A stretch of DNA of 64,000 nucleotides, taken from assembly GCA_021234155.1 (NCBI GenBank), contig JAJEKV010000129.1, positions 1,839,963 to 1,903,962 on the forward strand, given 5' to 3'. Position 1 is the stretch's first letter, and each line of letters opens with the position of its first letter. The position numbers and the translations under genes were made by a program. Positions 28,046 through 63,849 of this stretch are shown piece by piece. The notes under the pieces were generated by a model. It made no database searches, was not told the DNA's origin, and saw only the letters and a list, made by a program, of their open reading frames with translations. This stretch comes from Isoetes taiwanensis. Its lineage: Eukaryota; Streptophyta; Lycopodiopsida; Isoetales; Isoetaceae.

Positions 28046-28560
28046 CACAACAAGAAAAGGGGCATTTAGCGACGCCAATAGCGACGTCTCGCTGACGGCG
28101 ATCGCTGACGTCGGCGGCAGCGCCCCGGCGTCGCAGCAGACGTCGTTCGGACATTATCGCCGCGATGCGGCGTCGGCGCCGCATGCGACGTTGGCAAGCG
28201 CCGCGTCAGCCTTGACGCAGCCGAGCAGACGTGACACGACGTCGCCTTGGGACGTCGCGGCACGTGACACGTGAAATATACACGGAATATACACGTGGAA
28301 CATCACCAAAATCCACGCAGCGTCGCCGTAAAAAGCCACGCGTGTATCGCCGCATGCGGCGTGACCGTGAACGACGACCGTGGTATATACACGTGGCATA
28401 TACACGTGGAATATACACGTGCAATATACACGTGCGTAAAAGCCACGTGTAGACGTCGCATGCGACGTGACACGTGGAATATACACGTGGAAAATTCGAA
28501 AATCCGCGTATAGAAAAGCCACGTGGCAAAAAAAAAAAGCCACGTGGATACGTCGCATGC
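28046..28560. repeat. Left terminal and subterminal repeats of the CACTA element
   Basis: After the terminal inverted repeat, the sequence is dense in GACGTCG-type and GCATGCGACGT palindromes (28066-28260). This is followed by repeated ATACACGTGG units at about 28278, 28290, 28388-28436 and 28478. CACTA transposons carry clustered subterminal motifs that bind TNPA. Open frames through this stretch are by-products of repeat composition. Confidence 0.75.
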
Positions 28561-28574
28561 GACGTGTAGGAAAA

Positions 28575-28745
28575 AAAAATAAAAAAATATTTATATAAAA
28601 AATATAAATATAAAAATATTTTTAAATAATCACAAAAGTGTTTTTATATTCATATTTTTAAATAGTCACAAAATTATTTTTATATTTATATTTTTAAATA
28701 ATCACAAAAGTGAATTGTATTTATATTTTTAAATAATCACAAAAG
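28575..28745. repeat. AT-rich tandem repeat
   Basis: About four copies of a 40-46 bp unit around TTTTTAAATAATCACAAAAG with TATATTTATA between them. Sharp switch from the GC-rich subterminal block to AT-rich DNA. Confidence 0.8.
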
Positions 28746-28782
28746 ACTCGTTAAGAGGAGTATCCACCCTTTTAGCCTAGAG

Positions 28783-30913
28783 CTACTCTCTCTCAGATTC
28801 AGTGGAGTAGTCATCCGAGTACGTAGTTAGAGAACGCCTCGAACCGCCAGCCGCACGGTTGCGATTGGATGGCTCTCCAAATGACGCTTCGCGGATCCTC
28901 GCCGCCCAGAGCCCCATGTCATGCTCTAGACCTTCATTCATATCCGCCACTGCTTCCTATAAAAACCAAAAGAATATGGCGTTAATGTAGTTCATAGAAT
29001 TATAATAATTTTCTACAACGCACCCCCGCATTCCCGCGAATTGGGAGAGTTCCCTCGTCGTATAACTGTTGATACAGATAAACAGCTCCACGTTCCGTGG
29101 CTACTTGTACCTGCTGCTTGCTAGGGGCAAACCCGTATAGATATTCCTATGACAATATAACGAGTATTAGCTAGTGACATTTAAAGTTCTTATTAAAATT
29201 AATGTGAACTAATATAGCTCTTACGAATCTATAATGAAACCCTTCCGACCACGGAGCCAAATGAGACGGCTTTGGCGTGCTTTTTAGTTGCTTTGTCGGT
29301 CCGAGCTCTATGTTTTTTCCGGATCCTTTGCACGTTCTCAATGCAATCGATTGCAAGGCACACAACATTATCACAAGTTAAAGTGAACGAATGACAAAAA
29401 AAAATAAGAAATACCTTGATATCTTCCTTGTGGAGATTAAGTGGTTTAGGGACTTTTGACCAATCGCCTCCTTCTTTTTCGCAAGTCTGCTTCAGTTCCT
29501 TGACCACATTGTGCCTTTGACATACATCGATAGATCAACGCAATATCAAAATAATAAAAACAAGACTATGACTAGGTCATGTACCTCCTTTTTCGTATAA
29601 GCTCGCCCATCATCGAAGTGAGCTTCTTCCAGTTAGACGCCTTTGCTTTTTCTATCTCTGGGAAACTCTGTTTCATTTTATTTTTGACGCTCTCTATTTC
29701 GCGTTGGTCATAAGCACCAGGCCACTCCCCTATACCGCGGGGAGGCCATAAACGAGAGATATTATTTGTGACCGCGTCCCTCAGTGTAGTATAAAAGACA
29801 CTTCCCTCATCATCCTTCTTAGGAAGAGCGTCCCTGAAGCATAAATGGTGGGTATATAAAAGCGTGTTTATGTCTACCGTCAATATACATATCCCGTCCC
29901 GATTAAGAACCTTTTGAGCACTTTACAATGTATTCTAAGTGAAGAGAATGAACAAAACAACAAATTTAGATGACAAAGTACTAATATTTAAGGTTGATAT
30001 CTTAAATAATATGTTCACATAACTTACATCAAAAAATTATTATTAATATGATAGTCGGGTATATTCGGGGCCAATTCACCCGCAGACTTACGTGTCTAAA
30101 ACAAAGCGAAATGGATGCTCTTCTTCAGTGACACGTGGACGTCGTCGGGATCCTTCCCTCTCCAAGTCGGTGACGACCATGTTCTTCGGATCCCGAACCC
30201 TGTGATGATCGTCGCGATCTTGAACGTTGTGAGTCTGTTGCTCCACTACTTCTTGACCTGGGAAGTAATGAGAGAATGAGCATCTTTAACATGCTGCAAC
30301 CAAAGAAATGTTTGGTACGTAGTGGATATATATTTACCTGTTGAAATCTTCCTCCAAGTTCCTTGCATTAGAAAAATCTGTTCCCGTCTCTTGCCTAGAA
30401 CGGGAGTCCATACTACGTCTAGCATTCTCAATATTCTCGCGAGAACGTGGAGGCCGATAATCAACACTATGTCGTTGGGGAATAGGAGCGGGAGGCTGCC
30501 TAACTGGCGTTGGTGTCAAAGAGGCAAAATATGCTACAATTTGGTCTCTCCTACGGAGACATGTTTATGAGGAAGGCGGGGAGCGGCGGAGGAGCTGCAG
30601 AAGCACAAATATCATGCAAAAAACAATTCATTTATTTATTATTTTTATAAAAAACTATCTTAATACCCAAACCTGCTGGTGTAGTGATAGGTGGAGGTTG
30701 GCGTCTTAGAGGAACATCAGCACGATTGCCCCTACCTCGTGGAGTCCTCCTCCTATTTTCTCTAAACTCGTCCCTTTCCTCTACACAACAAATTAAAACT
30801 CCATGCATAAACTCACATACCTAATTAGAGGGTAAAGCGTATAATAAAAACTATATAAATACTTACCTTAAGTCTTGCTCATTCTCCGATGCGATTCGAT
30901 TACCTCTATTCAT
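28783..30913 (-). CDS. TNPA-like protein, Transposase_24 (Ptta/En/Spm) family
   Basis: Multi-exon gene at the 3' side of the CACTA element. Likely first exon 30867-30913 (MNRGNRIASENEQDLR then GTAAGT). Further exon pieces read: 30680-30785 (TPRGRGNRADVPLRRQPPP); 30334-30519 (RQPPAPIPQRHSVDYRPPRS); 30090-30260 (REGSRRRPRVTEEEHPF); 29572-29883 (ISRLWPPRGIGEWPG, SNWKKLTSMMGELIRKRR); 29229-29507 (KELKQTCEKEGGDWSKVPKP, RIRKKHRARTDKATKKHAKA); 29034-29146 (EYLYGFAPSKQQVQVATERG); and the last exon 28783-28956, which ends STESERE. The W-P-P-R then KKL...MRKRR order, and the final coiled region, are those of plant Transposase_24 proteins. Exon phases could not all be reconciled by eye, so some borders are approximate or the gene is degenerate. 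Confidence 0.65.
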
Positions 30914-31793
30914 CGCCGAGAAAAAAAAGCACACCTAGATCAAAAAGAAATTGTGAGAAAAACATTTGATAACCATGAATGATATTGGTTGCAATAATAG
31001 AATGATACTTACAAACCATAGAGATGAAAAATAGTATTTTTATGGTTCAAATGTGCCACTAATGAGCCCCCTGCAGACTTCTGCGAGTCTTGACCGCCTT
31101 GGACTTGGCCGGAGGGGGGAGACGATAATGCCATGAATATTGCATCAGCCAGAAAAGAGGGCCACAATGAGGAAAACCGCTAAGAATTGAGCCTCCGCCA
31201 TGACTATATATATTAATTTGAACATAACGAGAATTAGCGAGAAAAAGCTTTGAACAAGTGTCTTTGAATAAATACCTAAATTTATATTCTTATCTTCTTA
31301 TTTATATTAGAAAAGTATCTCTATATATAGGTATGGGGTGCATATCGAACTCTAGGTTGCCATATTATCGGGCCATGTATCATGTCATACAATCAACCCT
31401 AAATTATCCCACGTGGCATTTTTTAGTGCCACATCATGAAACCCCCTCGTTGCGTGTGGCACATCATCAAACCCTAGGTTGTGTCGCGTCGCGACTTCCT
31501 ATTGCCACATCATAGTAAGTGCCATGTCATCAAACCCCTAACTTTAGTGTGCCACATCATCAAACCCTAGATTGTGCCACATGGCATTTACAATCTAGGG
31601 TTTGATGATGTAGCACACAAAACCTAGGGTTTGACGTCTGTAGCGACACTTTATCTACAAGTTATGATTAATAATTTATTTACCATTAATAATAATTTTT
31701 TTGATTAATAAATTACTTTTTTCATTAGTAATTTTGACTAAAAACATTTATTGGTTGCAACAAGCCTCAAATAGGAAGACAAAATTATATTAA
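30914..31793. other. Non-coding stretch with short repeats
   Basis: From 31398 to 31640 the words GTGCCACATCATCAAACCCTAG recur four to five times with variations, the last in inverted orientation (CTAGGGTTTGATGATG at 31606). The rest is AT-rich without coding signal. Confidence 0.55.
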
Positions 31794-33527
31794 TCACTTC
31801 TTGCAAGCATTTAACAAGAGCTTAGCCATCTCAAGTGGATCACCACACTTCATATGTCGTCTCTCTCTCACAACTATATCGGGAAGAAAGCCTGTTTTTT
31901 TGAACACATCGACGACGCGAGCAATAGATGGGCGATCCATGTGCACCAGCTCTCTATCCATCATCATTTGGACCTTCATATGTTGGATGATGTCCAATGT
32001 GCTAGAGTATCGGTCGGTTGGGTTTATCTCAACACACAACCCCATAAGCCGCATTGCCTGGACAAAATCAAGGAGCATCTCGTAAATGTAGCCGGGGAAT
32101 ATATGTCGGATATCTCATGCCCCCATGATGCTTGGTCATCGATGATGATGTAAAAACTCTCTTCTCCCACCAAGGATATCGCACTGCTTCCATCTTGTAG
32201 TGTATAACGGCTCTTCAATTTGGGCATTCGGCTCCTTGCAAAAAAAAAAAGGAGGGCCGTGTCCCAATCACCAATAGCCACCCACACATTTGTAAGCGAG
32301 TCATCAAAATGGAGTTTGACCCTTTTGCAATTGAGCTTTGTGTGTGTCCAACCTGGGCGTGGATGGCATAGACTCATTCGCAAGAGCGAGAGCTATTTAA
32401 GGACGCGCCTTATACCACGAGTCTCATTTTGGCTTTCCACTCAAGACTTATCTTCATATCAGCCCTTCTTGGAGCACTATGCATTGCATTTGACCATCTC
32501 CTATAAGAAGAGAATTGGCTCTAAGATGGTCAAGTAATTCGCAAAGGTTCCTCCATTCATGAATGGCGGGACTACCATTGGTCCCCGTGGCTCATCTCCA
32601 CAAAAGACCTCGGGGGCAAGTCCAAGGGGTGTGGCCAATCTTTGGACTTGGGCTCTTGAAACGGATATACTTGTCAGCCAACAACCATGATGCAGCTCTA
32701 TCTTGGCCTCTCCACATAATGCCAGTATAATAATCATCTTGATTAAAGTACAGGGTTCCCAAGATCTGGATTTGGTATATCTGGCAGTCTTGTTTACTAC
32801 CAATGCACTTTACAACTCCAACAGCATCCACATGAATATGTAGCAAAATAACAGGGGGTTCCAGGGGGATTTCATATAGATATAATTCTTGAAACCATAG
32901 ACCATATCCCTAAAACAATTCAATGGGTTATTATAAAAAAAAACATAGATTTAAGATAAAAAATAGTCACATTAGCTCACTGGTTAGATTGGTTAAAGTC
33001 GTCTTATTAGGACATTGAGTTATTTTGGTAGAGGTTCGAATCCCCGTATTTCATATTCTAAAAGCTTAAGCGAAACTGTATAGAGGCTCGATATACCATC
33101 AAAACCTTAGGCAAACTCGTATTCGACATCTTAAAATCATAGGCGTCCCCAATCATAATTGAGCATAATCGAAACGAGAGGTGTCCAGAGGCTCCAACAT
33201 ACAGTCTGGGCCATCGGATTGACATATCCGACGACTGTGGTAGTCCAGGGTGCACCTCGTTTAGAATATGTAGAATATGCTGTCAATAAATGCAGCACAT
33301 TTATCATGAGCATGTAATGATAATCTAGCCCCTGCACCAATAGAGCTCCCACCATGGATAAGACTATCTAACTCCTTCACATGTTCATCATTGAGACCCC
33401 GCATCGGCCATCTTGTGATCTTTTTAAGTGCGGACCTTTGCACCGCCCACGAATTAGCCCATCGTCCCACGTATGCCTCGGCATAGGGGCTCATAAGTGG
33501 CACTTTATACTTAAGTAGCATCCTCAA
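31794..33527 (-). CDS. Unrecognised transposon-internal ORFs
   Basis: Four minus-strand open stretches with normal protein composition: 33261-33527 (RWANSWAVQRSALKKITRWP), 32501-32846 (GTLYFNQDDYYTGIMWRGQD), 32024-32383 (VWVAIGDWDTALLFFFARSR, LVGEESFYIIIDDQASWG) and 31794-32078 (MRLMGLCVEINPTDRYSSTL, ending LLLNACKK). The last two overlap around 32024-32078 in different frames, pointing to a frameshift near 32090. They lie between the array and the TNPA-like gene, on the transposon's coding strand. I do not recognise any domain. They may be a third transposon gene or a captured host gene. Confidence 0.35.
32966..33056 (+). mobile_element. tRNA-like sequence, probable SINE head
   Basis: TAGCTCACTGGTTAGA (32973) resembles an RNA polymerase III A box and GGTTCGAATCC (33033-33043) is a canonical B box, spaced as in tRNA-derived SINEs. 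The arms do not fold into a clean tRNA cloverleaf, so it is not offered as a functional tRNA. Confidence 0.45.
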
Positions 33528-34420
33528 TTAAACCTCGGGATTGCAAACCCAAGACTTTAAGTTCTTTCTCATCATATCTTCCAACTCGGACTCATGCTCG
33601 CCACCTCCCACATAATTGAGGCCAGGCATTCTTTCTCAACCGATGCTACAAAACGGTTAATTCGATCATCGGTTTGCATATGTCGTTAAATTCGGGGTCT
33701 GTGGCGCGCATATGTGATTGATGAGGATCGCCTAATTTCACTAAGCATCTCTGTCCTTCATCGAGGCCATTTTATGCCTACAAACAAAACAAAATAATGA
33801 ATACAAAAAGCCAAGCATGCACAAAGTAAATGCAACATAATACGACAATATCAAACATGTATGCGGACCATATAATCATTACTTATAACACCCTATGGCG
33901 ACTAATACCTTATCCGACCCTCAGCCCCCCCAAAAGCAAGAAAAAAAAAAGAAGAAGAAACAAGAAGAACTAAATAGGTTAGATTAGGGTATTCGGACCC
34001 ACGGTCAATTTACATTCAGATTACTAGTTAATTAGTTAGCGATAGTCCCAAAATTTAGTTAACTTTTTTAACCAAAAACACTACCTAAACTTATCTTCGC
34101 ACCTTGTTCGGATTAGTTAGCAAAATTAACTAAAAATTAACTAAATTAGAAATTAGCACTATAGAGGTCACTTTAAGTTTAGTTAATTGTACATATAATT
34201 TTTTATGCCTTTGACTAACTTAACTAGACATGTTCGAAATAATTTAGTTAATTAGTTAAGTTATTTTTTTACCAACGCTTTTAGTGTGAATTAGTACTAC
34301 ATTAAGTTAGCCTAACCTATTTTTTTTTAACTAGCACGGGTGTGAAGGGAATCATCCAGTTACTGTTAACTTAACCTAGCCCTAGCTACCTCTAGCTAAA
34401 ACTGACAATAAACGTGAACT
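33528..34420. other. No gene seen
   Basis: AT-rich, with many AACTAA/TTAGTTA words at 34010-34290 giving a weakly repetitive, self-complementary texture. No coding signal. Confidence 0.4.
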
Positions 34421-34810
34421 AAGGCCCTAACACCGGTCCTCCCCACTTTCAGCGGTGGAGCCGACCATGTCCTTCTTTGTAGCCACATCTACCTAAGAAT
34501 GAGAAGAAAAGTGGACTTGGACCCGGACACCTAGTCCTCTCCACGCAAGGTGGAGCCGACCGTGCCCTTGAACAAGCCACTACAATTTTATTTTAAACCT
34601 AAAAATAATAAGTGGAACTGGAAGTGGACTTGAACCCGGGTACGTGGTCCTCTCCACTCTAGGTGGAGCCGGCCAGGTGCCCTTGAACAAGCCACTCATT
34701 AACCTAGGAAACATTTATGATTGTAGTGAAAGTGGACTTGAACCCGGTACATGGTCCTCCCACTCTAGGTGGAGCCAGGCCCGTGCCCTTGAACAAGCCA
34801 CTCCATCAAT
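34420..34810. repeat. Tandem repeat, about 110-bp unit x4
   Basis: Units share GTCCTCTCCACTCxAGGTGG then AGCCG...GTGCCCTTGAACAAGCCACT; the GGTCC or AGTCC words fall at 34435, 34533, 34646 and 34753. The same unit core appears three times near the other side of the element at 58762, 58877 and 58992. Confidence 0.85.
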
Positions 34811-34924
34811 TTTTTAACCTACTTAAAACTATAAAAATAAAATGCAAGTGCGATCAACTACTTACCAAAATAAGGACGCGTGTACAAGATCCTGTCGGGT
34901 CCAAATCGTAATAGAAAGCTGCAA

Positions 34925-35680
34925 CAGAAGTAACAAAGCATTAGAAGAATAAGAACAAAGAAGAAAAACATCGAAGAAGAAATAAGGATAGAATAGAGAA
35001 GAAATAAGAGAAGAAACAAGAAAGAATGAAGAAAAATAAGAGGAAATAAGAGAAGGGAAGGGAATAGAATGGAAGGAAGAAATAAGGGAAGGGAAAGAAA
35101 AGGATCGAATGGAAAGTGAGGAAGAAATGTGAAGAATAAGAAACAAATGAAGAATGAAGAAATGAAATTAAAAAGAATGAAGAATAAGAAATGAAAAAAA
35201 ATGAAGAATAAGGAAGGGAAGAGAAGAAAGAAATGAGGGAAGGGAGGGGAAAGAATGAGGAATGAGAAAGCATGAGAAAGAATGGAAATGAGAAACAAAT
35301 GAGAAAGCATGAGAAAGAAATGAGAAAGAAATGAGAAAGCATGAGAAAGAAATGAGAAAGCAAGAAATGAGAAAGAATGAGGAAGAATGAGAAAGAGTGA
35401 GGAATAAAGAATGAGAAAGCATGAGGAAGAAAGAAATGAGAAAGAATGAGGAAGAAAGAATGAGAAAGAAATGAGGAAAGAAGAAATATGGGAAGAAAGA
35501 ATGAGGAAAGAATGAAGCATGGAAGAAGGAGGAAGAAATGAAGCATGAGGAAGAATGAGGAAGAAATGAAGCATGAGAAAGAAAGAAGGAGGAAGAATGA
35601 ACGAGGCATGGAAGAATGGGAAGAAAAAAAATCAAGAACAAAGAAGAAGAGGAAGGAAAGGAAACCAAAAACAGAGGAAG
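34925..35680. repeat. Purine-strand GA-rich low-complexity tract
   Basis: Roughly 750 bp almost free of pyrimidines except T on the plus strand, made of degenerate GAAGAAAGAATGAGAAAG words. The long minus-strand frames through it are Phe/Ser/Leu runs from repeat composition, not genes. Confidence 0.9.
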
Positions 35681-35769
35681 GTTGGGCATGCACCATTCAA
35701 TCCAAAAAACCTATTCAATCTAAAAAACATGATATACTAACCTTAGAATAGTTGTTTTTGGTGTAGATC

Positions 35770-36596
35770 GTTACAAGTACTAGCCATCCATGTCAAATCG
35801 CCCAAGAACCTCGAAGAAGTAGGGCAAAAAGAAGTTCCGAAAAAGCCGGCCGCCCGCTGGGTTTCAAAATATTATCTTAGACCAAGTCGCATCGTCCAGC
35901 GCCACGTCGCCCCAAAATTTTGCGTTATTTCAAAACTCCATTCCTTTGATCTTACGCCCCCGCACGTATTTTTGTTATAGCGACGTTATTGTTTTTTTGC
36001 ATCTTTTTTAATGTGAAGCTCATTAAAGTTTGTCCCTAGGCTTATTTGAACGAATTTATGAATGTCTTGGATCCTTGAACGGAGGATTCAACGGTTCCGG
36101 ATATATAGGGAACCGAAGCTCGGGAGGGTGTTCATTAATTCAGCATAGCCCCCTGAGGGCGGTGCCGTGACAAGTCTACCCCCGAGAACATTTTTGGGGT
36201 CCGCCTCACGGGGGCGGGACTCTCCCCTCTACCGAGGTGGCCATTCAAAGTCGCCTTGTTTGACTTGGGGAAGGGTGCCCTTCATGCTTGCCCAACAATC
36301 CGCTGCGACCGTTCTAACCCCAACGCTTGGGGGCCGGACCTTATCCGAAAATTTTGGAAATTTTCCTGGACAGATCTTTGGTGATGACCATGGAAGCCAG
36401 CTGACCAAAAACCATAATTTAATTCCATGCCATGCATTAACTATGAATTTATAAACCATAAATGCAATAAAATGCATAACTAAAAGAGTGTGCATCGAAA
36501 AAAGGCGAGTCTTTGACCAGGGGGGCAAATTTAAGGCGGTTGGCACTATGAAGCAATCTTTCATCAAGGTACAATTGTTTCTGAGAAACAAAACCA
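35770..36596. repeat. Diverged founder-like unit before the array
   Basis: Contains words of the array unit in the same order (AATTTATGAATGTCTTGG, GGAGGATTCAACGGTT, TTTGACTTGGGGAAGGGTGCC, ATTTTGGAAATTTTCC) with much higher divergence, plus CTTAGACCAAGTCGCATCGTC from the leader module. It may be an ancestral or decayed unit. Confidence 0.6.
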
Positions 36597-39500
36597 GTTC
36601 ATTACAAGTTAGTTATGCCATCCATGTCAAATAGCTTTAGGGAGCAGAAAAACCAAAACAAAAACCCTTCTAGAATCTGGCAAGTCACAGGGTTTACGTC
36701 CAATGCAATCTTAGACCAAGTATAACGTCCAGCGAGCCAAGGTCAACCCCAAGTACAACGATCCCACAAACTCCATTCCTTTGATCTTAGCTAACCCTTT
36801 GACCTAGACCTTCTCCTAAAAATTTCAAAATTGGGCTGTGTGTGGCCGGAGATGGGTTAGGAATCCAAAGTGGCAAAAAATCAGAATTTATTTTCGCACA
36901 ATGCATTAATTGCGAATTTATGAATGTCTTGCCACCGCAAAAGCGCCCCACTTCTACTTGCCACATCGGAGGAGGACAGCCCAAACTCCGCCCGCCGCCC
37001 CTTGCTCCAGATTCTCGGCTGCGGCTTCTCGGCCAGGTCCCAAGTGCAATGGACCAAGTCTCGCCCCCAAAACGCAAACCCTTCTAGAACCTGCAACCCA
37101 CCGGGTTTACGTTTTTGGAGGCCCTCTCCCTTGTCGATTCGGGGACCTTGGCGCGGACTTGACGTGGAGTGGGGGTGTTGGCGCCCGAGCACGGACCCTA
37201 AAATCCCCTCGAAGCTGCTTGCCCCTTTCCTCTCCCCAAGGCCACGGGGCCGGACGGGCGACCTCCCCTCTCCTCTCGCGATTTGACTCGCCAATGGACT
37301 CGAAACGCCGGCGTTGCCACGGGAACCAAGTTCCGTGGCGAAGACCACCCGACCTCCAAGAAGCGCCAAAGTAGCTCACTTCCATCACACTTTCGTGAGT
37401 CAATTGGCCTAGGATGTGGATGCGGGATCTTGTCGTGGAAGGCGTGAGTGTTTCTTTCTTTTGCAAAACCGACCTTGTAACTTGCTCCCTAGGGTAATTT
37501 AAGCCATTCCGGACGATTTGGCGGGGTCGATTTGCCATTCCGAGCCTCCCGGTGCGAGCGACAAGACATCGCGGTTTCTACAAGGTCGACCTCGGGGGCC
37601 CAGCGGTTTGACAAGTTCTCCCCACGGGACCGATCTGGAATCTTTTGGGCCTTCCCGGAAGAGGGGCCCTGAATGGAGGATCCAACGGTTGGGATAGGGG
37701 AACCGGGCCCGGAGGGTGGTCATTAGCGTCTCCCCCGGAGCGCCGCCAGAAGGGCTGCCTCGAACGCTTTTTGGATCCCGCCTCTTGGGGTCCGGACTCT
37801 CCCCCCTTTGTGAGGGATCCCCGCAAAGGTCCCCGCCTCGTTTGACTTGGGGAAGGGTGCCGGCTTTCGGTTGCCGCAGCGGGCTGCCCCGACCGCTCTA
37901 ATGCTAACCCTTTCACCTAGACCTTCTCCCAAAATTTCAAAATTGGGCTGTGTCTTTGGAGATGGGTTAGGAATCCAAACTGGCAAAAAATCAGAATTTA
38001 TTTTCGCACAATGCATTAATTGCGAATTTATGAATGTCTTGCCATCGCAAAAGCCCCCGACTTCTACTTGCCACATCGGAGGAGGACAGGCCCAAACTCC
38101 GCCCGGCGTCAGTTCCCCTTGCTCCATATTCTCGGCTGCGGCTCGGCCAGTCCCAAGTGCAATTGGACCAAGTCTCGGCCCCCAAAACGCCAAACCCTTC
38201 TAGAACACGGCAACCCACGGGGTTTTACGTTTTGGAGGCCCTCTCCTGTCGGTCGGTCGGGCTGGGACCTTGCGTGGTGACTTGGCGGGAGTGGGGGTGT
38301 TGGCCTTGAGCACGGACCCTAAAATCCCCCCGGAAGCTGCTTGCCCCGAATTTCCTCTCCCAAGGCCACAGGGGGCCGGACCGGGTGACCTCCCTCTCCG
38401 GAATGCGATTTGACTCGCCAATGGACTCGAAGCGTCGGCGTTGCCACGGGGACCAAGTTCCGTGGCCAGAAGACCACCCGACCTCCAAGAAGCGCCAAAG
38501 TAGCTCACTTCCATCACACTCGTAGTCAATTGGCCTAGGATGTGGATGCGGGATACTGTCGTGGAGGGCGTGAGTGTTTCTTTCTTTTGCAAAACCGACC
38601 TTGTAACTTGCTCCCTAGGGTAAATTCGCCATTCCGGACGATTTGGCAGGGTCGATCTGCCATTCCGGAGCCTCCCCGGTGCCCGAACGACAAGACACTG
38701 CGGTTTCTACAAGGCCGACCTCAGGACGCCCCGCGGTTTGACAAGTTCTCCCGGACCGATCTGGAATCTTTTGGGCCTTCCCGAAGAGGGGCCCCTGAAC
38801 GGAGGATCCAACGGTCGGATAGGGGAACCGGGCTCCGGGAGGGTGGTCATTAGCGTGCAGCCCCCCGGGGGAGCGCTGCCAGGAAGGGCTGCCTCGGGAA
38901 CTTTTTTGGATCCCGCCTCTTGGGGTCCGGACTCTCCCCTCTTGTGAGGGATCCCTGCAAGGTCCTGGCCTCGTTTGACTTGGGGAAGGGTGCCAGCTCG
39001 GTTGCCCTGCAACGGGCTGCCCCGACCGTTCTAATGCTAACCCTTTGACCTAGACCTTCTCCGAAAATTTAGAAAATTGGGCTGTGTGCTGGAAATGGAT
39101 TAGGATTCCAGCTGGCAAAAAATAAGAATTTATTTTCGTACAATGCATTAATTGCGAATTTATGAATGTCTTGCCACTGCAAAAGCGCCCCCCGACTTCT
39201 ACTTGCCACATCGGGAGGAGGACAGGCCCAAACTCCGCTCCGTCAGTTCCCCTTGCTCCGTATTCTCGGCTGCAGCTTCTCGGCCAGGTCCCAAGTGCAA
39301 CAGACCAAGTCTCGGCCCCCAAAACGCAAACCCTTCTAGAACCTGGCAACCCACAGGGTTTACGTTTTGGAGGCCCTCTCCTTGTCAGATTCGGGGGGGA
39401 CCTTGCGCCGTGACTTGACGTGGAGTGGGGGTGTTGGCGCCCGACCACCCCAAAAATCCCCCTAAGGTGCTTGCCCCTAATTTCCTCTCCCCAAGGCCCT

Positions 39501-42500: not shown

Positions 42501-43144
42501 AATGCATTAATTGCGAATTTATGAATGTCTTGCCATCGCAAAAGCGCCCCCGACTTCTACTTGCCACATCGGGAGGAGGACAGGCCCAAACTCCGCTCCG
42601 TCCGGTTCCCTTGCTCAGTATTCTCGGCTGCAGCTCCTCGGCCCGTGTCCCAAGTGCAATGTAGACCAAGTCTCGGCCCCCAAAACAAACCCTTCTAGAA
42701 CCCGGCAACCCACGGGGTTTTACGTTTTGGAGGCCCTCTCCTTGTCGGTCCGGGCGGGACCTTGGCGGACTTGGCGTGGAGTGGGGGGGTGTTGACGCCC
42801 GAAAGCACGGACCCTAAAATCCCCCTGGCTGCTTGCCCCAATTTCCTCTCCCCAAGGCCCCGGGGGCCGGGCGAGGCGACCTCCCCTCTCCGAACTCAAA
42901 GATTTGACTCTGCCAATGGACTCGAACGTCGGCGTTGCCCTAGGGACCAAGTTGCGTGGCGAGAAGACCAAAACTTCGGCTCCCAAAACAAAACCCTTCT
43001 AGAATGCGGCAAGTCACGGGGTTTACGTTTTGGAGGCCCTCTCCTTGTCGATTTGGTGGGACCTTGCAACCGTATCTTGACATGGAGTGGGGGTGTTGGA
43101 CGCTTGCTCGGGACCCTAAACTCCCCCAGAAGATGCTTGCCCGA

Positions 43145-43489
43145 ATTGAGTTCATTACAAGTTAATTATGCCATCCATGTCAAATAGCTTTAGGGGCAAA
43201 TCCAGTTGAACAAGGGCATTCTCGCTATCCATATGCCTTGATCTTTGAAACACAACCATCATCACAAGCAACCAAATCTAACCCCCAACCCCGCACTAGT
43301 CTTTTTGCTTTTACGTAATCATTTATCTTCATTCTAGTAGTTATGATGCTTTTACGTAATCATTTATCTTCATTCTAATAGTTATGATGCTTATATTCTC
43401 AATGCAATCTTAGACCAAGTATAGCGTCCAATGAGCCAAGGTCAACCCCAAGTACAACGATCCCACAAACTCCATTCCTTTGACCTTAG
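43145..43489. repeat. Array block leader module (copy 2)
   Basis: A lower-GC module (GAGTTCATTACAAGTTAATT, then two TCATTTATCTTCATTCTA repeats, then CTTAGACCAAGTATAGCGTC) that restarts the unit series. A shorter version opens the array at 36597 and another copy lies at 47477, splitting the array into three blocks. Confidence 0.85.
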
Positions 43490-47298: not shown

Positions 47299-47311
47299 NN
47301 NNNNNNNNNNN
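47299..47311. other. Assembly gap, 13 N
   Basis: Unresolved bases inside the array, directly after the most disordered units. Confidence 0.99.
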
Positions 47312-47476
47312 TCCCAAAACAAAAACCCTTCTAGAATCGGCAAGTCACGGGGTTCACGTTTGCTGAGGCCCTCTCCTTGTGAGATTTGGTCGGGACCTTG
47401 CCGTATCTTGACATGGAGTGGGGTGTTGGCCCGAGCTGGGACCCTAAACTCCCCCCGGAAGTTGCTTGCCCCGAAT

Positions 47477-47815
47477 TCAGTTCATTACAAGTTAATTATG
47501 CCATCCATGTCAAATAGCTTTAGGGAGCAGTCCGTTGAACAAGGGCATTCTCGCTATCCATATGCCTTGATACTGAAACACAACCATCATCACAAGCAAC
47601 CAAATCTAACCCCCAACCCGCACTAGTCTTTTGCTTTTCTGTAATCATTTATCTTCATTCTAGTAGTTATGATGCTTTTCTGTAATCATTTATCTTCATT
47701 CTAATAGTTATGATGCTTATATTCTCAATGCAATCTTAGACCAAGTATAACGTCCAGCGAGCCAAGGTCAACCCCAAGTACAACGATCCCACAAACTCCA
47801 TTCCTTTGACCTTAG
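47477..47815. repeat. Array block leader module (copy 3)
   Basis: Nearly identical to 43145-43489, including the paired TCATTTATCTTCATTCTA motif. The unit before each of these two modules is truncated at the same place, after TTGCCCGAATT, so the block with its leader seems to have been copied as one piece. Confidence 0.85.
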
Positions 47816-50800: not shown

Positions 50801-52870
50801 GTCGATTTGCCATTTCGAAGCCTCCCCGGTGCCCGAGCGACAAGACAACTGCGGTTTCTACAAAGGCCGACCTCGGGGCGCCCAGCGGTTTGACAAGTTC
50901 TCGGGACCCGATCTGGAATCTTTTGGGCCTTCCGAAGAGGGGGCCCTGAGCGGAGGATCAGCGGTCGGATAGAGGAGGGCTCCGGGAGGGTGGTCATTAA
51001 GCGTGCACCCAGGAGGCGCTGCCGGGGAAGGGCTGCCTCGGGGGAACTTTTTGGATCCCAGCCTCTTGGGGTCGGACTCTCCCCTCTTGTGAGGATTTGC
51101 AAGGTCACGGCCTCGTTTGACTTGGGGAAGGGTGCCCTTTCGGTTGCCACAGCTTGGGCTGCCCGGCCGTTTCTAATACTAACCCTTTGACCTAGACCTT
51201 CTCAGAAAATTTAGAAAAATTGGGCTGTGTGCTGGAAATGGATTAGATTCCAGGTGGCAAAAAATCAGAATTTATTTTCGTACAATGCATTAATTGCGAA
51301 TTTATGAATGTCTTGCCGCGCAAAAGCGACCGCCCCGACTTCTACTTGCCACATCGGAGGAGGACAGGCCCAAACTCCGCTCCGTCGGTTCCCCCTTGCT
51401 CCCGTATTCTCGGCGCGGCTCCTCGGCCAGGTCCCAAGTGCAGCAGACCAAGTCACCGGCCCCAAAGCGCCAAACCCTTCTAGAACACGGCAGCCCGCGG
51501 GGTTTCGTTTTGGAGGCCCTCTCCTTGTCGGTTCGGGCGGGGACCTTGCGCCGGGTGACTTGGCGATGGAGTGGGGGTGTTGGACGCCAGAGCACGGACC
51601 CTAAAATCCCGGGAAGGCTGCTTGCCCAATTTCCTCTCCCCAAGGCCACAGGGGCCGGGACAGGCGACCTCCCCTCTCCGAATTGCGATTTGACTCTGCC
51701 CAATGGACTCGAGCGTCGGCGTTGCCACGGGGACCAAGTTCCGTGGCGGAAGACCACCCGACCTCAAGAAGCCAAAGTAGCTCACTTCCATCACACTTTC
51801 GTGAGTCAATTGGCCTGGGATGTGGATGCGGGATCTTGTCGGGAGGGCGTGAGTGTTTCTTTCTTTTGCAAAACCGACCTTGTAACTTGCTCCCTAGGGT
51901 AATTTTAAGCCATTCCGACGATTTGGGGTCGATTTGCCATTCGGAGCCTCCCGTGCCCGAACGACAAGACACTGCGGTTTCTACAAAGGCCGACCTCGAG
52001 GGGGCCCAGCGGTTTGACAAGTTCTCGGGACCGATCTGGAATCTTTGGGCCTTCAGAAGAGGGCCCCCGAGCGGAGGATCCAACTGGGTCGGATAGGGGA
52101 GGCAGGGCTCGGGGAGGGTGGTCATTGGCGTCGATGGCCCGGGGGGGCTTTGCCGGGGAAGGGCTGCCTGGGGAACTTTTTGGATCCGCCTCTTGGGGTG
52201 GGACTCTCCCCTCTTGTGAGGGATTGCTGCAAGGTCCGGCCTCGTTTGATGTGGGGAAGGGTGCGGCTTCGGTTGCCCCGCAACGGGCTGCTGCGACCGT
52301 TCTAATGCTAACCCTTTGACCTAGACCTTCTCTAAAAATTTAGAAAATTGGAACGTGTCCGGAAATGGATTAGGATTCCAGCTGGCAAAAAAATCAGAAT
52401 TTATTTTCGTACAATGCATTAATTGCGAATTTATGAATGTCTTGCCATCTGCAAAAGCCCCCAGACTTCTACTTGCCACATCGGAGGAGGACAGGCCCAA
52501 ACTCGGATTTCCGTCGGTTCCCCTTGCTCCGTATTCACCGGCAGGCTTCTCGGCCAGTCCCAAAGTAACGCTGGACCAAGTCTCGGCCCCCAAAACGCAA
52601 ACCCTTCTAGAACCACGGCAACCCGCGGGGTTTCGTTTTTGAGGCCCTCTCCTTGTCGATTCAAAGGGACCTTGCGCCAGGACTTGACGTGGAGTGGGGG
52701 TGTTGGCCTTGAGCACCTGGACCCTAAAATCCCGGAAGGCGCTTGCCCCGAATTTCCTCTCCCCAAGGCCCCCCGGACTGGGCGCCCTCCCTCTCCGGGA
52801 GTGCGATTTGGCTCGCCAATGGACTCCTAACGTCGACTTGCCACGGGGACCAAGTTCCGTGAAGAAGACC

Positions 52871-53577
52871 ACTCATGTTCACCCAACTAAGAAATGTGTT
52901 TTAAGCGTCATTTGTGCGTGATGCGGCGTCAATCACGCCGCATCGCGGCGATTTGGTTATAGCGGCGTGGTTTAACTATTTTTTATTTTTGTTGTGTACA
53001 TGTTTGATAATGGGGCATGTTTGAGCCTAGACAATGCTTGAGCCTAAGAGGCTTGTTTGAACCTAGGTAGCATGTTCGACCTGAGGGGAAATGCAACGCC
53101 TACACGTTCAACGCCTATAGGCTCCCTCATGCTTCACTCTATGTATTTGGACTTGTTCACCCTACAAAATACCATTATTATTATCTCGTTTGAAAGGTAG
53201 AGCAAATGATCCACAACAGAAAAGCTAGTGGATAGCATCAAATTAAGCAATGATCAGGTTAACTTGGTGGTGGCACTGGTTTAAGGTTAGAGAAAATCGG
53301 AAGTAACTAAGATACCATTGAAGACTCTTTGCATGTTCTAGTCTAGAGGCAATGCTTGAGCCTATGTGGCTTCTTTGAGCCCATGTTCCAGCCGTTCTTT
53401 ATTCCTCCGATATAATGTATACCAAAAGGGGGGGGGGGGAGAAAAAAAGAATTGAATTGAATGGGTTTTTATTGCACACGAAGACCAATAGACATAGCCT
53501 ATCAGAAGGATTATTCGAGGATGTGCATAATATTTGACATATAGAATTTAATGATCGTCTCCTCTAGGTGCTAACTA
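52871..53577. other. Array border and repeat fragments
   Basis: 52915-52972 has palindromic GCGGCGT and CGCCGCATCGCGGCGA words like the element's subterminal repeats. 52998-53100 repeats TTTGAGCCTAG-like words. At 53431-53442 a G run leads to GAATTGAATTGAATGGGTTTTTATTG and ACGAAGACCAATAG, resembling the LINE 3' tail seen at 10951 and 12082 (copy C, minus strand, very short). Confidence 0.45.
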
Positions 53578-56500
53578 GGAGTCGTCATTGTTAGCATTGC
53601 CAACATTTGTATTAAAATGCCTGAAGTACATCTGTATTTCGTGGAATTGATCTGGTGTAAGATGCTGCATGAGAGCTGGTGGTCCAACCTCTTGATGCTC
53701 GTTTTCCGGTGAGTTTGAATGCCTTGATCTGCCAGAGGGCTCTTCAGACGTTATTGACTCCTCTAGCACAACACCTTGGAATATTGGGCGTCCCCTCGGT
53801 GTAGTTTGTATGATAAACCACCATGTTGGGTCTTGTCGACGGCAGTAAAAAAAAAATCTGGTCAAAGAAGCTGGACGTGAGATTGATATTGATGGTCTAA
53901 ATTTTGAAGTGGATATGTGTATGTGTGTACCTGTTCACAGTTGTCTGGAAGGACAAGCGTCTCACTACCAGGGTACATCTTGCTAGAGTTGACAGCGAAA
54001 AAGCCACTTGTTCTATCATACTTTATTGTAGGCCCGCCCCTTAATTGAAGGTCAAACCAATCGACATCATGAATATGAAGGTCTTAAAATTGCCACCAAC
54101 ATCCACCTCCATTATAGTCTTTTAACCTCCCACCCAATCCGCGGGTGGCTTCCCTCGACGATTCACGATCGGCAACACTTGATTGAAACTCCATCGTGAA
54201 TGATGCCATGACTCCAAATACAAGTCTTCCTGTGTATGTCAAGAGAACTCACCGCGATAGTGGGTCCCATGCCACCATATCGGGGAGTAAGATATATCTT
54301 GTCAAAAGCACCATTAATGTCAATAGATACAATAACATCAAAAGAAAATACTCGATTTCGACATCAACATAATTTGTTGCAACTACCTTTTCATGACACC
54401 TTGTGCGTATGCCCATTCCAAAGTCATTTGTAATATACTCCCCCTTGTGATATGCATCGGTCCAAAGCCACGTAGTACCCATTCTCTTTCCATCTTGTCA
54501 GGCAAGGGTTCATATCCATCGTGGTCACGGGGCTCGTCTATTATGTCGTCTCCATTCATGCCTCTTCTCTTCCATTTCTTCCTTTGCGTTCTCATAACGA
54601 GCAATCCATTTTGCCATTGGTGCGAATTGTAAAGAAGAAATTGATTAACCTTAATGATCATATCGGCGGAAATGACTTACGCATACCATTGCCTTCTCGC
54701 CACTACCCCCCCCCACAATCTTCGCCCCTTCATCACTCCATAAGCGAGGTGCATCTCGGATGTACTGGCGGAAATATATTTAAATCATATAGAAAAGTGA
54801 CTCTTTTCGCAAGCCATCCCTCTGCCATACTACCTTCGGGACGTGCTCTTTCTTTGACGCACCATATCCTTCAATACCTTCATAAACCTTTCCAAGAAAA
54901 ACATCCATCGGCATGTACACGGTTCCCATGAGCTCCACTTCCTCAATAAGATGTACCAAAAGATGGGTTTGATCGTCAAGAAAGCTCGAGGGAAACTCCT
55001 TCTCCAACAAGCAACATGCCTCTGCCATTTTCACTTTCATCTCTTCAATTTAAGTCTTTTCGGTATAGTTTTTTACACATCCACCTATGAGGTCCAAAAC
55101 AAAAACTTAGCCACAAATAAAATAGACGGGGGACCACTAAATCAACATGGGTAACAACCTTATGACCTTTGATAGGGCACTTATTGCCTCCAATGGTCCC
55201 TTGTCTAAAACTCCCCTAAAGGTCAGGGGCATGAAGAACTGCATGATCCAAACACCAAATATAAGTTATGGGTTACATTTTATAGTAGTGCATATATATG
55301 TGGACTTCAATTGCTTACATGCAAGAACTTATGCCAGTCATGGGACTTTAAACCCGGTCGACTCCCACTACTTGTGAATGCGGTTCGCAATGATTGCATG
55401 TAACCAGTTGGTGTTCTAAGGGCCCTTAAATCATCATAAATAGCTCGATGGTCAGCCCTAGCAATAACCCATTTTGCCGGAGGAAGTGGTTGCCCTTCAC
55501 CTCGGATCCATGCCTCTTTCTTTGTATTACTTACCTTAAGGTCCATCCTGGCATTTGTTGTGTCTTTTTGACCAAATACATGCTTCCATAAAGAGTTTCC
55601 CACGTTCTTGAAGATATGCATCGGGTCTAAAAGGTGTTGAATCAGTAGGTCGGTCCAATATGGTAGTCTATAAAAAACAGACTTCCTTTTCATATTGGCA
55701 GTAAAGACTTCCTCCTCCGCGGCTTCCTCGCCACCACTGTATAATTCCTCATCCTCACTGTCTAGGTCGGCTACGACCTCCTCAGCTGCAGGTGCCCCCC
55801 CACGGATTTCCCCTTGCGGATTTTCCCCCTCTTCCTTCTTATCCCAACGCTCACCCCATTCTCGTATGGTAATTCTGCTTGGTGGTTCTGTATAGTCTAC
55901 AGTGCCACCGAATTGTGCACGCTGCTTTCTGAAGGGGTGCGTGAGCGGCAAATACTTCCTAAAACCCTCAGATACTACTTTCTTGGATGCTTAGAGTGGA
56001 CGGTTGCTGCAACTTTTCCCCACATATCATGCAAGGGAAGTGCCCGATGTCTTAAACCCAGTAACTTTCGGCAAACCGGGGAAAGTCATGCATAGTCCAC
56101 AATAGTATACCTCTAAGATTAAAAACGTCATTTTTATGGGCATCGTAGACCTGAATACCTGTGTTCCACAAAGGGAGTAACTCATCCACAATTATTCTTA
56201 GGTACACATCTAAATTACTTGGTTTTTTCTTCCCAGGTATCAATAAAGTCATCATAATGTGCCCACTCTTCATCAACAACCATGGGGGTATGTTGTAGTT
56301 CACTATCATCACGGGCCATGTAGACCATGCAAATCGATTGTGTACCATATGGGTTTACGCCATCGGTGGCCAGGCCCAAACGCACGTTACGTGGTTCTTT
56401 TCCAAAGTCAGGCCATGTCGCATCGACATGCTTCCAAGCTGCACTGTCGCTCGGGACTCGCATCACATCATCACTAGATGCATGTGTAGCCGTGAAGTCC

Positions 56501-58677: not shown

Positions 58678-58733
58678 TAAACCCTAAACCCTAAACCCTA
58701 AACCCTAAACCCTAAACCCTAAACCCTAAATCC
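58678..58733 (+). repeat. Interstitial telomeric repeat (CCCTAAA)n
   Basis: Eight near-perfect CCCTAAA heptamers, the last with a C-to-T change, just upstream of the transposase-associated domain exon. Too short and internal to be a chromosome end. Confidence 0.95.
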
Positions 58734-58739
58734 TAAATG

Positions 58740-60539: not shown

Positions 60540-60836
60540 TCAATACCAAATATCGACTCCAAACAGACTGAAAACTTTCTGCAAAGGGCTGTTGCATCCT
60601 GCATCAACACTGTAATTTCCAGCACCAGCAGAAGGATCCCTTCGCCAGCTGATGTAAAATTTTTTACCTTGGATATCTCTCTCAAACGAAACCACATCAT
60701 TCACCTGCAAATTCTTTGCCTTGACAAATCTGCTCCAGCCTTTTGTGAAGACATAACTTTGGGAACTATCCCAATAACAGTATCTAAATTTCCACATGCA
60801 TTGATTTTCATCTTTTTTTTTTCTCCACAATTCCAT
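60540..60836 (-). pseudogene. RAV-type B3 DNA-binding domain fragment
   Basis: Reads WKFRYCYWDSSQSYVFTKGW, SRFVKAKNLQVNDVVSFER, KKFYISWRRD and ends QKVFSLFGVDIWY. The order W-F-R-Y-YW-SSQSY-TKGWSRFVK then DVVSFER is that of plant B3 domains of the RAV/TEM group, and the VxLFGVxI tail is their C-terminal repressor-type motif. The N-terminal part of B3 and any AP2 domain are missing. It lies inside the CACTA element's boundaries, so I read it as a captured fragment rather than a working gene. Confidence 0.75.
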
Positions 60837-60916: not shown

Positions 60917-61153
60917 TCAAGCTGCCCACTTGGTTGCACAAGCACGAAATGAAATGCCAGTCTCAAGGACTTTCTTATCTAACCAATCTACACTATCTTG
61001 AGAGCCAACTAGATCCACCACAGAAATATCTGGTGGAGTGTCTAGCATAATATCCTCTAGGCTGAACTTTTGTGGCACGCATGGCTCAGTATCAAACGTG
61101 AATCCAAGCTCTCTTAAAAGATGACGCGCATCATTTTCTATACTCCTTGCCAA
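60917..61153 (-). pseudogene. Helical protein fragment, unknown
   Basis: 79 codons including stop (MARSIENDARHLLRELGFTF, DISVVDLVGSQDSVDWLDKK). Composition is protein-like but the family is unknown to me. Adjacent to the B3 fragment on the same strand but in a separate frame; it may belong to a different captured gene. Confidence 0.35.
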
Positions 61154-61289
61154 CCCTGATTGTTTGCACCTTGATTGTTTGCCCTAAATCGCTTTAAAAA
61201 CAATGGGAACATGAATTGAAGGAAAAAGTAGTACCATCTGTCAAGCTATCCGTACATATACCATGAAGATCGAGAGAAGAATAAATTGT

Positions 61290-61510
61290 GTTGAATTTTG
61301 TAAGCCACGACATTGTGCTTACTACATATGGAACCATTTGTTCGAATTACGAAAAGCCATCCGAAGAGGATGAAAAAGCGACCCGAGCCCGGGCTAAAGG
61401 GGCACCGCTTGTCGAACATTAGGTGGTTTAGAATTATTACGGATGAAGCTCAATCCATTAGAAATGCTCACACTAAAAGTTCATGTGCTTGGGGCTTAAG
61501 GGCACAATGA
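61290..61510 (+). pseudogene. SNF2-family helicase fragment 1
   Basis: One frame reads DIVLTTYGTICSNYEKPSEE (from about 61310), then a +1 shift near 61418 leads to LSNIRWFRIITDEAQSIRN and SSCAWGLRAQ. These are helicase motif Ia/Ib to II (the DEAQ variant of DEAH) of the plant SNF2/RAD5-like group. The frame break and missing ATP-binding P-loop show that it is a fragment. Confidence 0.75.
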
Positions 61511-61574
61511 AGATGGTGCCTTTACGGAACATGCGACCTTCTCGACACATATGTCACATCGTCACACATATAAC

Positions 61575-61600: not shown

Positions 61601-61649
61601 TTTAAAAGTTTTAAAATATAAGAGAATCTTGGGTGAGCCTAAGGAATCC

Positions 61650-61985: not shown

Positions 61986-62329
61986 TCATGAGTCATGAAG
62001 CGAAAACAATCCCGAGCATGGCGTTAAAAAACTGCACCAAAGGATCTGATTTTTGGCATGTAGGAGCAGAAGAGAGGTCTGTTTTTCGGTATTGGGTGTT
62101 CGTGAAGAACCCCCAGCGATGTCGGCAAGCTCAACCGCCTTGTGATCCCTAAGCTCCAGGCTGAAGCCCATTTTCCTTTGCACCATGACATGCTCTGCTT
62201 TGAAGACTTCCAAGGTAACAGCTGGCAGTTTAGATACTCTTCTTGGCGGCATAGCGGCCCGGAGCTATGTTCCAATTCCACTTTCCATGTATGGATCTCT
62301 AGAAACAAGGCCATCAACAGTGTAGCCAC
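61986..62329 (-). pseudogene. Captured-looking fragment, unknown
   Basis: Two overlapping frames; the more protein-like one reads [20 protein letters not shown] then [20 protein letters not shown]. Frame changes within 100 bp suggest decay. Same strand as the ORF at 62314-62742 directly upstream, so possibly one captured gene. Confidence 0.3.
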
Positions 62330-62742: not shown

Positions 62743-62765
62743 GTCGCTAAATGACCATTCTCTTT
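62729..62765 (-). repeat. Internal CACTA terminal-repeat remnant
   Basis: GCGTCGCAAACCCACGTCGC then TAAATGACCATTCTCTT matches the right end of the element (63807-63843) with only a few differences, but it stops before the last CTTGTTGTG bases. It is a buried end from an earlier or nested element of the same family. Confidence 0.7.
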
Positions 62766-62954
62766 CACATCTAGAGATAAGATTACTTCCAGAAAGACCT
62801 GATGAAGCCGCATTGATATGGACAGATCAATCAGTCAATAATCAATAAATCCCTTTTGCCGGGGATGTTTCAGAATTAACGCTATGTTTCAGAATTCGCC
62901 ATCGACCTAAACCTAGAATCCGCCATTAGGACGTCGGGACAAGCGGCTGCAAGT

Positions 62955-63180
62955 CATATTAAACACTATAATGCTTCGGCGGACAAAAGGTAAAAGTGTG
63001 GGATTTTTCTTGTGTTCTTGCACAAATTTTAAGGCTTTATCCTGTTCTTCTTCTCAGAACAATGATTGACAACAAGCCTATTGTCAAGTTACCTTCAAGG
63101 ATTGTAAACTTGGAACAACTAGATTTTGACACAGAACAACGTCAGTTTTATAATGAACAATTTATAGCGGTAGCATATCT
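62955..63180 (+). pseudogene. SNF2-family helicase fragment 2
   Basis: IMLRRTK at 62968-62989, a 68-bp stretch with GTAAAAG donor and TTCTTCTTCTCAG acceptor, then TMIDNKPIVKLPSRIVNLEQ and LDFDTEQRQFYNE. This is the conserved MLRRTK...LP...FY segment following the SNF2 N-terminal half. Joining the two exons as they stand puts the frame off by one, so the gene is broken. It likely comes from the same parent gene as fragment 1, with other captured sequence between them. Confidence 0.7.
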
Positions 63181-63299
63181 ACTGTGATGATGCATGCGCA
63201 GGCAACACGCTTAAATGAAGCTGCAGGTTGGTCGTCAGAGTCTTTTTTAGACAGGTATCAATCAGACAGCTATTGAATTTGTAATCCTAAAAAACCATT

Positions 63300-63849
63300 A
63301 ACCTTCGTATATAAAAAAATATCGTCACATCGACCACCACGCCACATATCGTCATCGACGTGTCATATCGCCACATATACATACCGACGTGTCATATCGC
63401 CACATATACGTCTCGACGTGTCATATATGTCACATACGCCATATATAATCGTCATCGACGTGTCATATCGATACATACGTCCACATACGTCCACATATAC
63501 GACGCCGCATCGCGACGTCCACGCCGTAAACATCCACCGGGCGAGACACTGCCGTCCACCGGGCGCCTAAGCCCACCGGGGCGAGACGGATGGGCCAAGC
63601 AATCAGACGTCGTCGATGCGACGCGACGTCATAGCTGCCCACTGGCGTGACACACCGTCGATCCACGGGCGCAAGCGTCCACGGCATGACAGATCCGCCA
63701 CGCCACGGTGTCGACGTCGCACCACACGCCGCATGCGACGGTCCGGGCGACGCGGACGCCGCGTGGCGTCGCATGGTGGCGTTATTTGCGACGTCACGTC
63801 GCACAGACGTCGCAAGCCCACGTCGCTAAATGTCCATTCTCTTGTTGTG
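63300..63849. repeat. Right subterminal and terminal repeats of the CACTA element
   Basis: ACGTGTCATATCGCCACATA units repeat at 63358-63480, then dense CGACGTC, GCATGCGACG and GCGACGTC palindromes, ending CACGTCGC, TAAATG, TTGTTGTG. Mirrors the left end's composition. Confidence 0.75.

Follow-up and report, generated by a model that had tools for sequence, protein, structure and literature searches.

A single insertion between CAC-type ends

Does a stretch of nearly 36 kb, bounded by ends of the CACTA (En/Spm) type, represent one transposon? The question is raised by a 64,000-nucleotide piece of the Isoetes taiwanensis genome (G000:C940:1839963-1903962, here called the window), in which an initial annotation had placed a single 35.8-kb CACTA element at positions 28046-63849. 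The window was compared with the genome of the same assembly (1.658 Gb in 1,110 contigs); other copies are designated below by contig (C) or by fetched locus (L). We conclude with high confidence that 28046-63849 is one member of a high-copy family of giant CACTA elements, inserted as a unit with duplication of CAA. Feature coordinates are collected in Table 1.

Superfamily ends begin with CAC, canonically CACTACAAGAA, and the canonical CACTA end reads CACTACAAGA. The left end, from 28046, reads CACAACAAGAAAAGGGGCATTTAGCGACG, while the right end, read inward from 63849 on the minus strand, reads CACAACAAGAGAATGGACATTTAGCGACG. The two 29-bp ends are identical at 26 of 29 positions and carry CATTTAGCGACG at equal offset, forming a CAC-type terminal inverted repeat whose first ten bases, CACAACAAGA, are one base off CACTACAAGA; the strict letters CACTA are not present. 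CAA adjoins both ends, as expected of a 3-bp target-site duplication. The matching termini, shared offset motif and CAA flanks that the initial annotation had reported were thus all confirmed. An exact search of both strands of the window found CACAACAAGA at only two places, the two element ends, and no second exact terminus pair inside the element. The CATTTAGCGACG motif occurs once inside, at 62742, within a fragment of the right end. The canonical CACTACAAGA is found on the minus strand at 32193, in the left arm, and at 5307, in both cases without a CATTTAGCGACG partner.

The genome was searched for empty sites with a query in which 330 bp of the left flank were linked to the right flank by one CAA. 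Besides the window, the join was matched continuously at 90% in C1053:9392407-9392735 and C940:1706340-1706668. When these paralogous sites were read out, the left flank was found to pass directly to the right flank without the element, indicating that the 35.8 kb entered as one insertion. Both sites are identical over the 600 bases compared and therefore count as one independent witness. Such identical paralogues (L044, L045) could reflect a recent duplication or a haplotype duplicated in the assembly. At the joint the empty sites read CCAACAAGTCTAA and the joined window CCAATAAAGCTAATAGATC; their multiple alignment retains a single CAA. Two further matches were also obtained, one to the left flank only (C940:1681k) and one roughly spanning both flanks at 71-91% identity (C1072:395k). 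Apart from a small ambiguity over the single CAA at the empty sites, considered below, 28046-63849 was inserted as a unit with CAA duplication.

A family of large elements

The pattern CACAACAAGA-N(4-9)-CATTTAGCGACG occurred 662 times in the genome (327 forward, 335 reverse), against 0 for the backward-read control; the likeness of the ends is therefore not due to chance. Family ends belong mainly to two classes, a left type with AAAAGGG and a right type with GAATGG. Among the first 100 listed places, six mixed-class pairs were read (C79, C197, C778, two on C907, and C908), other listed pairs, for example on C104, C116, C136, C150 and two more on C907, being left out of the reading. Equal 3-bp flanks were found in the window (CAA/CAA), C79 (AGA/AGA), C197 (GTA/GTA) and C907b (TAT/TAT).

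Seven further pairs were obtained from DNA searches with the left end (40 of 751 candidates scored) and the right end (40 of 741) and from fetched right arms. They measure 19-68.5 kb, and all seven have equal 3-bp flanks: C1071 (56,909 bp, ACT), C1036 (68,523 bp, TTT), C1019 (26,926 bp, TGA), C1028 (19,071 bp, AAT), C912 (27,482 bp, TAG), C1106 (37,544 bp, TCT) and C1067 (25,047 bp, TAC). C1036, C1019, C1028 and C912 are known by their ends only, and C1067 by its ends and right arm. In total, 11 of the 14 end pairs have identical flanks, and ends with equal flanks pair across 7.9 to 68.5 kb. For three more left ends (C1028:10.5M, C1034, C101) the end search gave no partner on the right, and they stayed unpaired. 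The picture of a lone giant oddity has consequently to be given up, the element being a typical member of a giant family with 662 end matches.

Three copies read whole were aligned with the window element. The copy on C1106 contains no N; 99.9% of it is matched by the window element in the same order, and it covers 97.7% of the latter, lacking mainly 32838-33283 and 46392-46662. The C1071 copy (C1071:6867114-6924022; L018, L039-L043) also contains no N, consists of family sequence to 99.4% and shows no inner exact termini. It has a second block comprising an array tail, a transposase and the start of the B3/SNF2 fragments described below. Substitutions relative to the window amount to 5.2% in this second block and 3.1% in the main block, and C1071 is therefore a composite of two lineages. 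Unequal crossing-over from array to array was rejected as the sole source of the second block, as the two blocks belong to different lineages and one of the junctions falls within the SNF2 fragment. The gap-free C79 copy (35,677 bp) lacks, among others, window 52875-59636 and 61157-62935. These losses take out the transposase and most of the SNF2 piece; lacking the tnp2 region, C79 would be non-autonomous. Its array (L001-L003) carries an insertion of about 11 kb of long terminal repeat (LTR) type, with direct repeats of about 0.6 kb. Window positions 32838-33276 (about) are missing from C1071, C1106 and C79.

We also compared the right ~9.5 kb of seven copies (L017-L023), picked for having the captured and transposase regions. 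Six of the seven were collinear with the window save for small insertions or losses, with 90-95% identity in long pieces and 82-94% in some outer end pieces; substitutions alone amounted to 2.5-4.2% between right-arm copies. A 187-bp block at 62721-62908 contains the right end of the element itself in truncated form (62729-62764). This block is present in L018 and L020 and partly in L019, and absent from L017, L021, L022 and L023. In L023, array-unit sequence (L023:9129-9701, on C1101) lies directly past the right end.

Transposase, subterminal repeats and captured fragments

A tnp2 domain (Transposase_21, PF02992), the core of TNPD, was detected on the minus strand in three frames, its matches in the window forming one block. 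The initial annotation had predicted a TNPD reading right to left inside the element, which agrees with this result. It had also placed a TNPA gene after TNPD; no such gene was found with Pfam in the window or in C1071. A genome search with the transposase stretch gave at least 42 matches from 39 scored of 619 candidates.

Gaps between element copies were mostly of 1 bp and unusually frequent. Gap events per substitution reached 0.80-1.19 in the right arm (seven copies) and 0.76-0.90 in the left arm (three copies). In three controls, the paralogue of the host flank and two other repeats of the window, each aligned over 328-1,073 bases, the value was 0.06-0.08; the ratio in element copies is roughly ten times that of the host-flank repeats. 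The excess of 1-bp indels is probably due to uncorrected long-read errors in repeats. Because of this excess, decay can hardly be concluded from split transposase frames, and the copies are more alike than their percentage identities suggest. Selection on captured or transposase frames was considered but found no clear support: the ratio of nonsynonymous to synonymous differences (pN/pS) was 0.37-0.75 over six stretches in five frames, L018 and C1071 being one copy counted twice, which reveals no clear constraint. For the 227-amino-acid TNPD frame, the one for which shifted controls were run, pN/pS was 0.58 in frame and 0.62 and 0.53 in the shifted frames.

Both ends of the element carry subterminal repeats. 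GCGACG occurs 22 times in the outer 1,200 bp, against 3.6 expected and a maximum of 10 in 500 simulations. The enrichment is found throughout the family: where about 1.2 copies would be expected, nine left ends average 10.9 and fifteen right ends 10.4 (a single right end is counted as both C1071 and L018), with 6-15 copies per end. The CpG observed/expected ratio is 1.8-2.0 in the element ends, 0.79 in the array and 0.46 in the left host flank.

Fragments of host genes lie upstream of the transposase. The best solved relatives of the C-terminal B3 piece are RAV1, NGA1 and TEM1. The SNF2 piece was also detected in C1071 (E 1.8e-15, stops read as X), with RAD5 as its best solved relative, while the N-terminal B3 piece found no match in C1071 at E 0.1. 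A genome search with the stretch 60900-62700 gave at least 50 matches from 40 scored of 845 candidates; given the many matches to this and the transposase stretch, the captured fragments are common to many copies. The element differs from a Pack-CACTA, which holds host fragments without a transposase, in that tnp2 is present beside the B3 and SNF2 pieces. A telomere-type (TAAACCC)n tract was also noted. A scan of eight further loci (L017-L023 and L040), with C1106 outside the scan, found 3-6 unbroken units at seven loci from six elements (L017-L022 and L040, the second block of C1071) and no run of three TAAACCC units in L023. The B3 and SNF2 fragments and the telomere-type repeat are additions to the earlier account of this locus.

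We also considered whether the captured B3 piece could replace TNPA by binding CACCTG, the RAV target. We do not regard this idea as supported: none of nine left ends carries CACCTG, and the B3 piece is only half a domain. CACCTG was present in nine of fifteen right ends (mean 1.13 against 0.20 expected).

The 1.1-kb array

Between the left arm and the transposase lies an array of satellite DNA, with units of about 1,115 bp and a GC content of 0.49-0.59, all on one strand. Fourteen units were cut from it; leaving out pieces of 1,092 and 876 bp, the twelve units of 1,100-1,165 bp have a mean pairwise identity of 86.1% (66 pairs). A leader containing 41-bp repeats is found three times, at 36.6, 43.0-43.5 and 47.3-47.8 kb, from which it follows that whole sub-arrays were duplicated. 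A coding function of the array was rejected. Gap lengths in the 66 pairs were 1 mod 3 in 1,744 cases, 2 mod 3 in 659 and multiples of 3 in 323, an argument weakened by the 1-bp indel excess, and no long frame is common to the units. No Pfam match was found in one stretch translated in six frames, and the lack of an Rfam match at the gathering threshold led us to reject a known RNA or a ribosomal DNA spacer. The initial annotation had attributed the unusual size mainly to this array. Its share is indeed large, about 16.3 of 35.8 kb (~45%); the word "mainly" does not hold, since ~19.5 kb lies outside the array, in itself a considerable length that includes a long left arm and fragments captured from the host.

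The array was found in all nine elements read whole, with 13.8 units in the window, 25.9 in C1071, 16.2 in C1106, 14.9 in C778, 11.8 in C79, 10.0 in C907a, 4.5 in C907b, 4.2 in C908 and 3.4 in C197. It is on the same strand in eight of them, and C1106 is collinear with the window. Both the array and the captured fragments have been inherited within the family. The most conserved 18-base word of the unit had 5,119 exact matches in the genome (control 0) and occurred 82 times in the ~88 units of eight elements, leading to a crude estimate of ~5,500 units or 6 Mb in the genome.

The array might instead be an independent genomic satellite that CACTA elements captured or hit. The capture of a free satellite has a precedent in Chenopodium, according to the available text of that study (PMC8978399). 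Moreover, of 13 multi-hit array clusters among the first 100 listed places, only six (C1, C24, C35 twice, C70 and C79) were judged by eye to have, no more than 25 kb away on the expected side, an exact end or the 10-mer of an end, the 10-mer end listing used running to C52. The other clusters, however, may have decayed ends, which exact searches would miss, and in two cases the cluster begins at the edge of a contig. The array also lies between the left arm and the right end in nine of nine elements read whole, including small ones where no tnp2-region match was seen. We therefore regard a free satellite as rather unlikely, although it is the alternative that survives best, and favour the array as a component of the family.

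A second alternative is that the giant size is partly an artefact of assembly, the array having been mis-joined or over-expanded, so that the true element would be shorter or longer. The array does contain a gap of 13 N, which makes the exact element length provisional, and the high indel/substitution ratio of the element copies (0.76-1.19, against 0.06-0.08 in the three small controls) would fit such an explanation. The gap is the sole N run in the window, and none was present in the 51 other loci fetched. Against an artefact, the gap-free copies are also long (C1071, 56.9 kb; C1106, 37.5 kb; C79, 35.7 kb including its ~11-kb LTR-type insertion), and in the window element ~19.5 kb lies outside the array. 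We consider this explanation improbable.

Weighing the single insertion

Several observations weigh against a single insertion of a family member. The empty sites read CCAACAAG, and since the paralogue itself reads CAACAA, a single CAA cannot be proved from the empty site alone: it is the better but not the sole alignment, and the BLAST alignment there omits the initial 18 bases of the right flank. Three of the first seven pairs, window included, have unequal flanks (C907a CAA/TAA, C778 TAA/TAG, C908a TAG/AAT); C907a and C908a hold repeated arm or end pieces internally and may be composites. One of the seven right arms, L019 (C1072:2895400-2903600), is rearranged: its captured pieces are reordered, and an exact right end is missing from the part that was read. 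No TNPA-type gene was recognized, Pfam matching nothing in the left arm, which was searched on both strands in the window and on the transposase strand in C1071, although genes of this type may be too diverged for Pfam. In eight of eight copies the transposase region is broken into short frames, where indel errors confound any conclusion on activity. Finally, the 13-N gap lies within the array.

These points leave the single CACTA across 28046-63849 standing on its ends, its flanks, the empty sites and a collinear gap-free copy. Neither two separate elements nor one end alone came to light when these outcomes were sought within the genome of this assembly. That two neighbouring or nested CACTA elements are present, their outer ends pairing by chance, is extremely improbable: C1071, with its second tnp2/B3 block of another lineage, does indicate that members join within the family, but the window holds one tnp2 block, no inner exact CACAACAAGA termini, and one left-class and one right-class end with matching CAA flanks, and the empty sites together with the collinear, gap-free C1106 copy elsewhere reject such a pair.

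Discussion

Movement of the element, present or past, would be by cut and paste, in which a tnp2-type transposase would act on the 29-bp ends and a DNA-binding partner, not found here, would bind the GCGACG repeats near both ends, as is to be expected from the superfamily. Comparison of the copies shows that the size comes from an inherited ~1.1-kb array between transposase and left arm, its unit number varying by copy, and also from host fragments captured upstream of the transposase. The array may grow by unequal exchange or slippage during replication, or through faulty repair following excision, and transposition could then spread it through the genome, where the unit word was counted 5,119 times. 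Faulty post-excision repair or template switching might account for larger rearrangements: the composite C1071, the deletion in C79 and the fragment of the right end at 62729-62764.

A wider picture is possible, and we put it forward tentatively. CACTA ends would carry 35-68 kb as one mobile unit with the ~1.1-kb array as a constant working part; the family would be both origin and main carrier of the satellite, with at least ~5,000 units (~6 Mb); and composites such as the 56.9-kb one would be mobile themselves.

The element belongs to a known superfamily, is new in its size and in its constant 1.1-kb array, and follows the plan of the satellite-bearing CACTAs of Chenopodium. According to the available text on the latter (PMC8978399), a Chenopodium quinoa CACTA of 16,523 bp has a 5,550-bp array of 171-bp units downstream of the transposase, and Jozin-type CACTAs have captured gene pieces upstream of it. 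Transposase_21 with DUF4218, upstream captured fragments and a downstream array are common to these and the Isoetes element. The 12-bp subterminal repeats of the Jozin/quinoa elements are akin to those of Isoetes, and their 28-bp ends carry CATTTG one base further inward than CATTTAGCGACG in the Isoetes element (PMC8978399). The differences described in the same text lie in the array (5,550 bp of 171-bp units in quinoa, ~16 kb of ~1.12-kb units here), in the length of complete elements (8.3-16.5 kb, against 7.9-56.9 kb read whole and 68.5 kb by ends here), in the captured genes (AP2/Neprosin, against B3/SNF2) and in the occurrence of the array, reported in four quinoa elements and found here in nine of nine elements read whole (PMC8978399).

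Large CACTAs have been described elsewhere. The soybean element Tgmt*, of 20.5 kb, whose gene is expressed in sister lines, is likewise unusually large for a plant CACTA and has a 3-bp duplication, subterminal repeats and tnp2; it differs in having a TNP1/TNPA-like region and in its size, ~57% of the window element, and the available part of the report describes no ~1.1-kb array (PMC2613891). A "large CACTA" is mentioned at the soybean R locus in the accessible part of another report (PMC4219821). En/Spm elements of 16-20 kb in the red alga Chondrus, as cited in the text available to us (PMC6431247), are enlarged like those of Isoetes, but by extra open reading frames instead of an array. In wheat, 140 capture events involving many genes and 11 CACTA families are recorded in the text at hand, which calls short tandem repeats CACTA-typical; host fragments are captured in both plants, whereas in Isoetes a single family has the same fragments in many of its copies (PMC4290129).

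Among the matches listed in the open-licence PubMed Central literature, we found no CACTA above ~20 kb and no title on telomeric repeats within CACTAs, and CACAACAAGA as a query returned only unrelated titles. Compared with the ~20-kb published elements found, the size at which a CACTA behaves as one insertion is nearly doubled. The family provides a clear case of a cut-and-paste transposon whose standard make-up includes a long satellite array, a point of relevance for the seeding of satellites across chromosomes. Gene annotation of such copies needs care, as they contain host-gene fragments and frames apparently blurred by assembly errors.

Table 1. Features of the CACTA element and its borders (window positions).
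Feature	Position	Strand	Basis or remark
Left 3-bp flank CAA (target-site duplication)	28043..28045	.	Sequence; 11/14 family pairs with identical flanks
Left terminal inverted repeat, 29 bp, family class AAAAGGG	28046..28074	+	End comparison, genome pattern
Left subterminal region, CpG-rich	28046..28645	.	GCGACG 11x, both orientations
Left arm	28646..36593	.	Both strands without Pfam match at E 0.05; tract rich in purines at 34.9-35.7 kb
Array of ~1.12-kb GC-rich non-coding units, ~13.8 units	36594..52872	+	
13-N assembly gap in array	47299..47311	.	
DUF4218 piece, downstream of tnp2	54912..55058	-	24.3 bits, under Pfam cut-off 27
TNPD core, Transposase_21 (tnp2)	55859..56472	-	E 2.7e-33, 4e-14, 9.7e-07; frameshifts in copy as assembled
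Telomere-type (TAAACCC)n tract	58678..58737	+	Sequence
B3 domain fragment, C-terminal half, RAV/NGA type	60639..60815	-	Pfam; upstream of transposase
SNF2 helicase gene fragment, two pieces, frame change	61021..61531	+	Pfam; also in C1071
Second B3 piece, N-terminal half	62103..62258	+	26.9 bits, under Pfam cut-off 30.1
Right subterminal region, CpG-rich	63250..63849	.	GCGACG 11x, both orientations
Right terminal inverted repeat, 29 bp, family class GAATGGA	63821..63849	-	End comparison, genome pattern
Right 3-bp flank CAA (target-site duplication)	63850..63852	.	Sequence

Two further features were observed in the window to the left of the element. A pair of inverted repeats of ~1.08 kb (21429-22505 and 24433-25511, 93.5% identity) lies in the left host flank, and a 320-amino-acid open frame at 4753-5712, on the minus strand, matches the Replitron HUH endonuclease domain with a score exactly at the Pfam cut-off.

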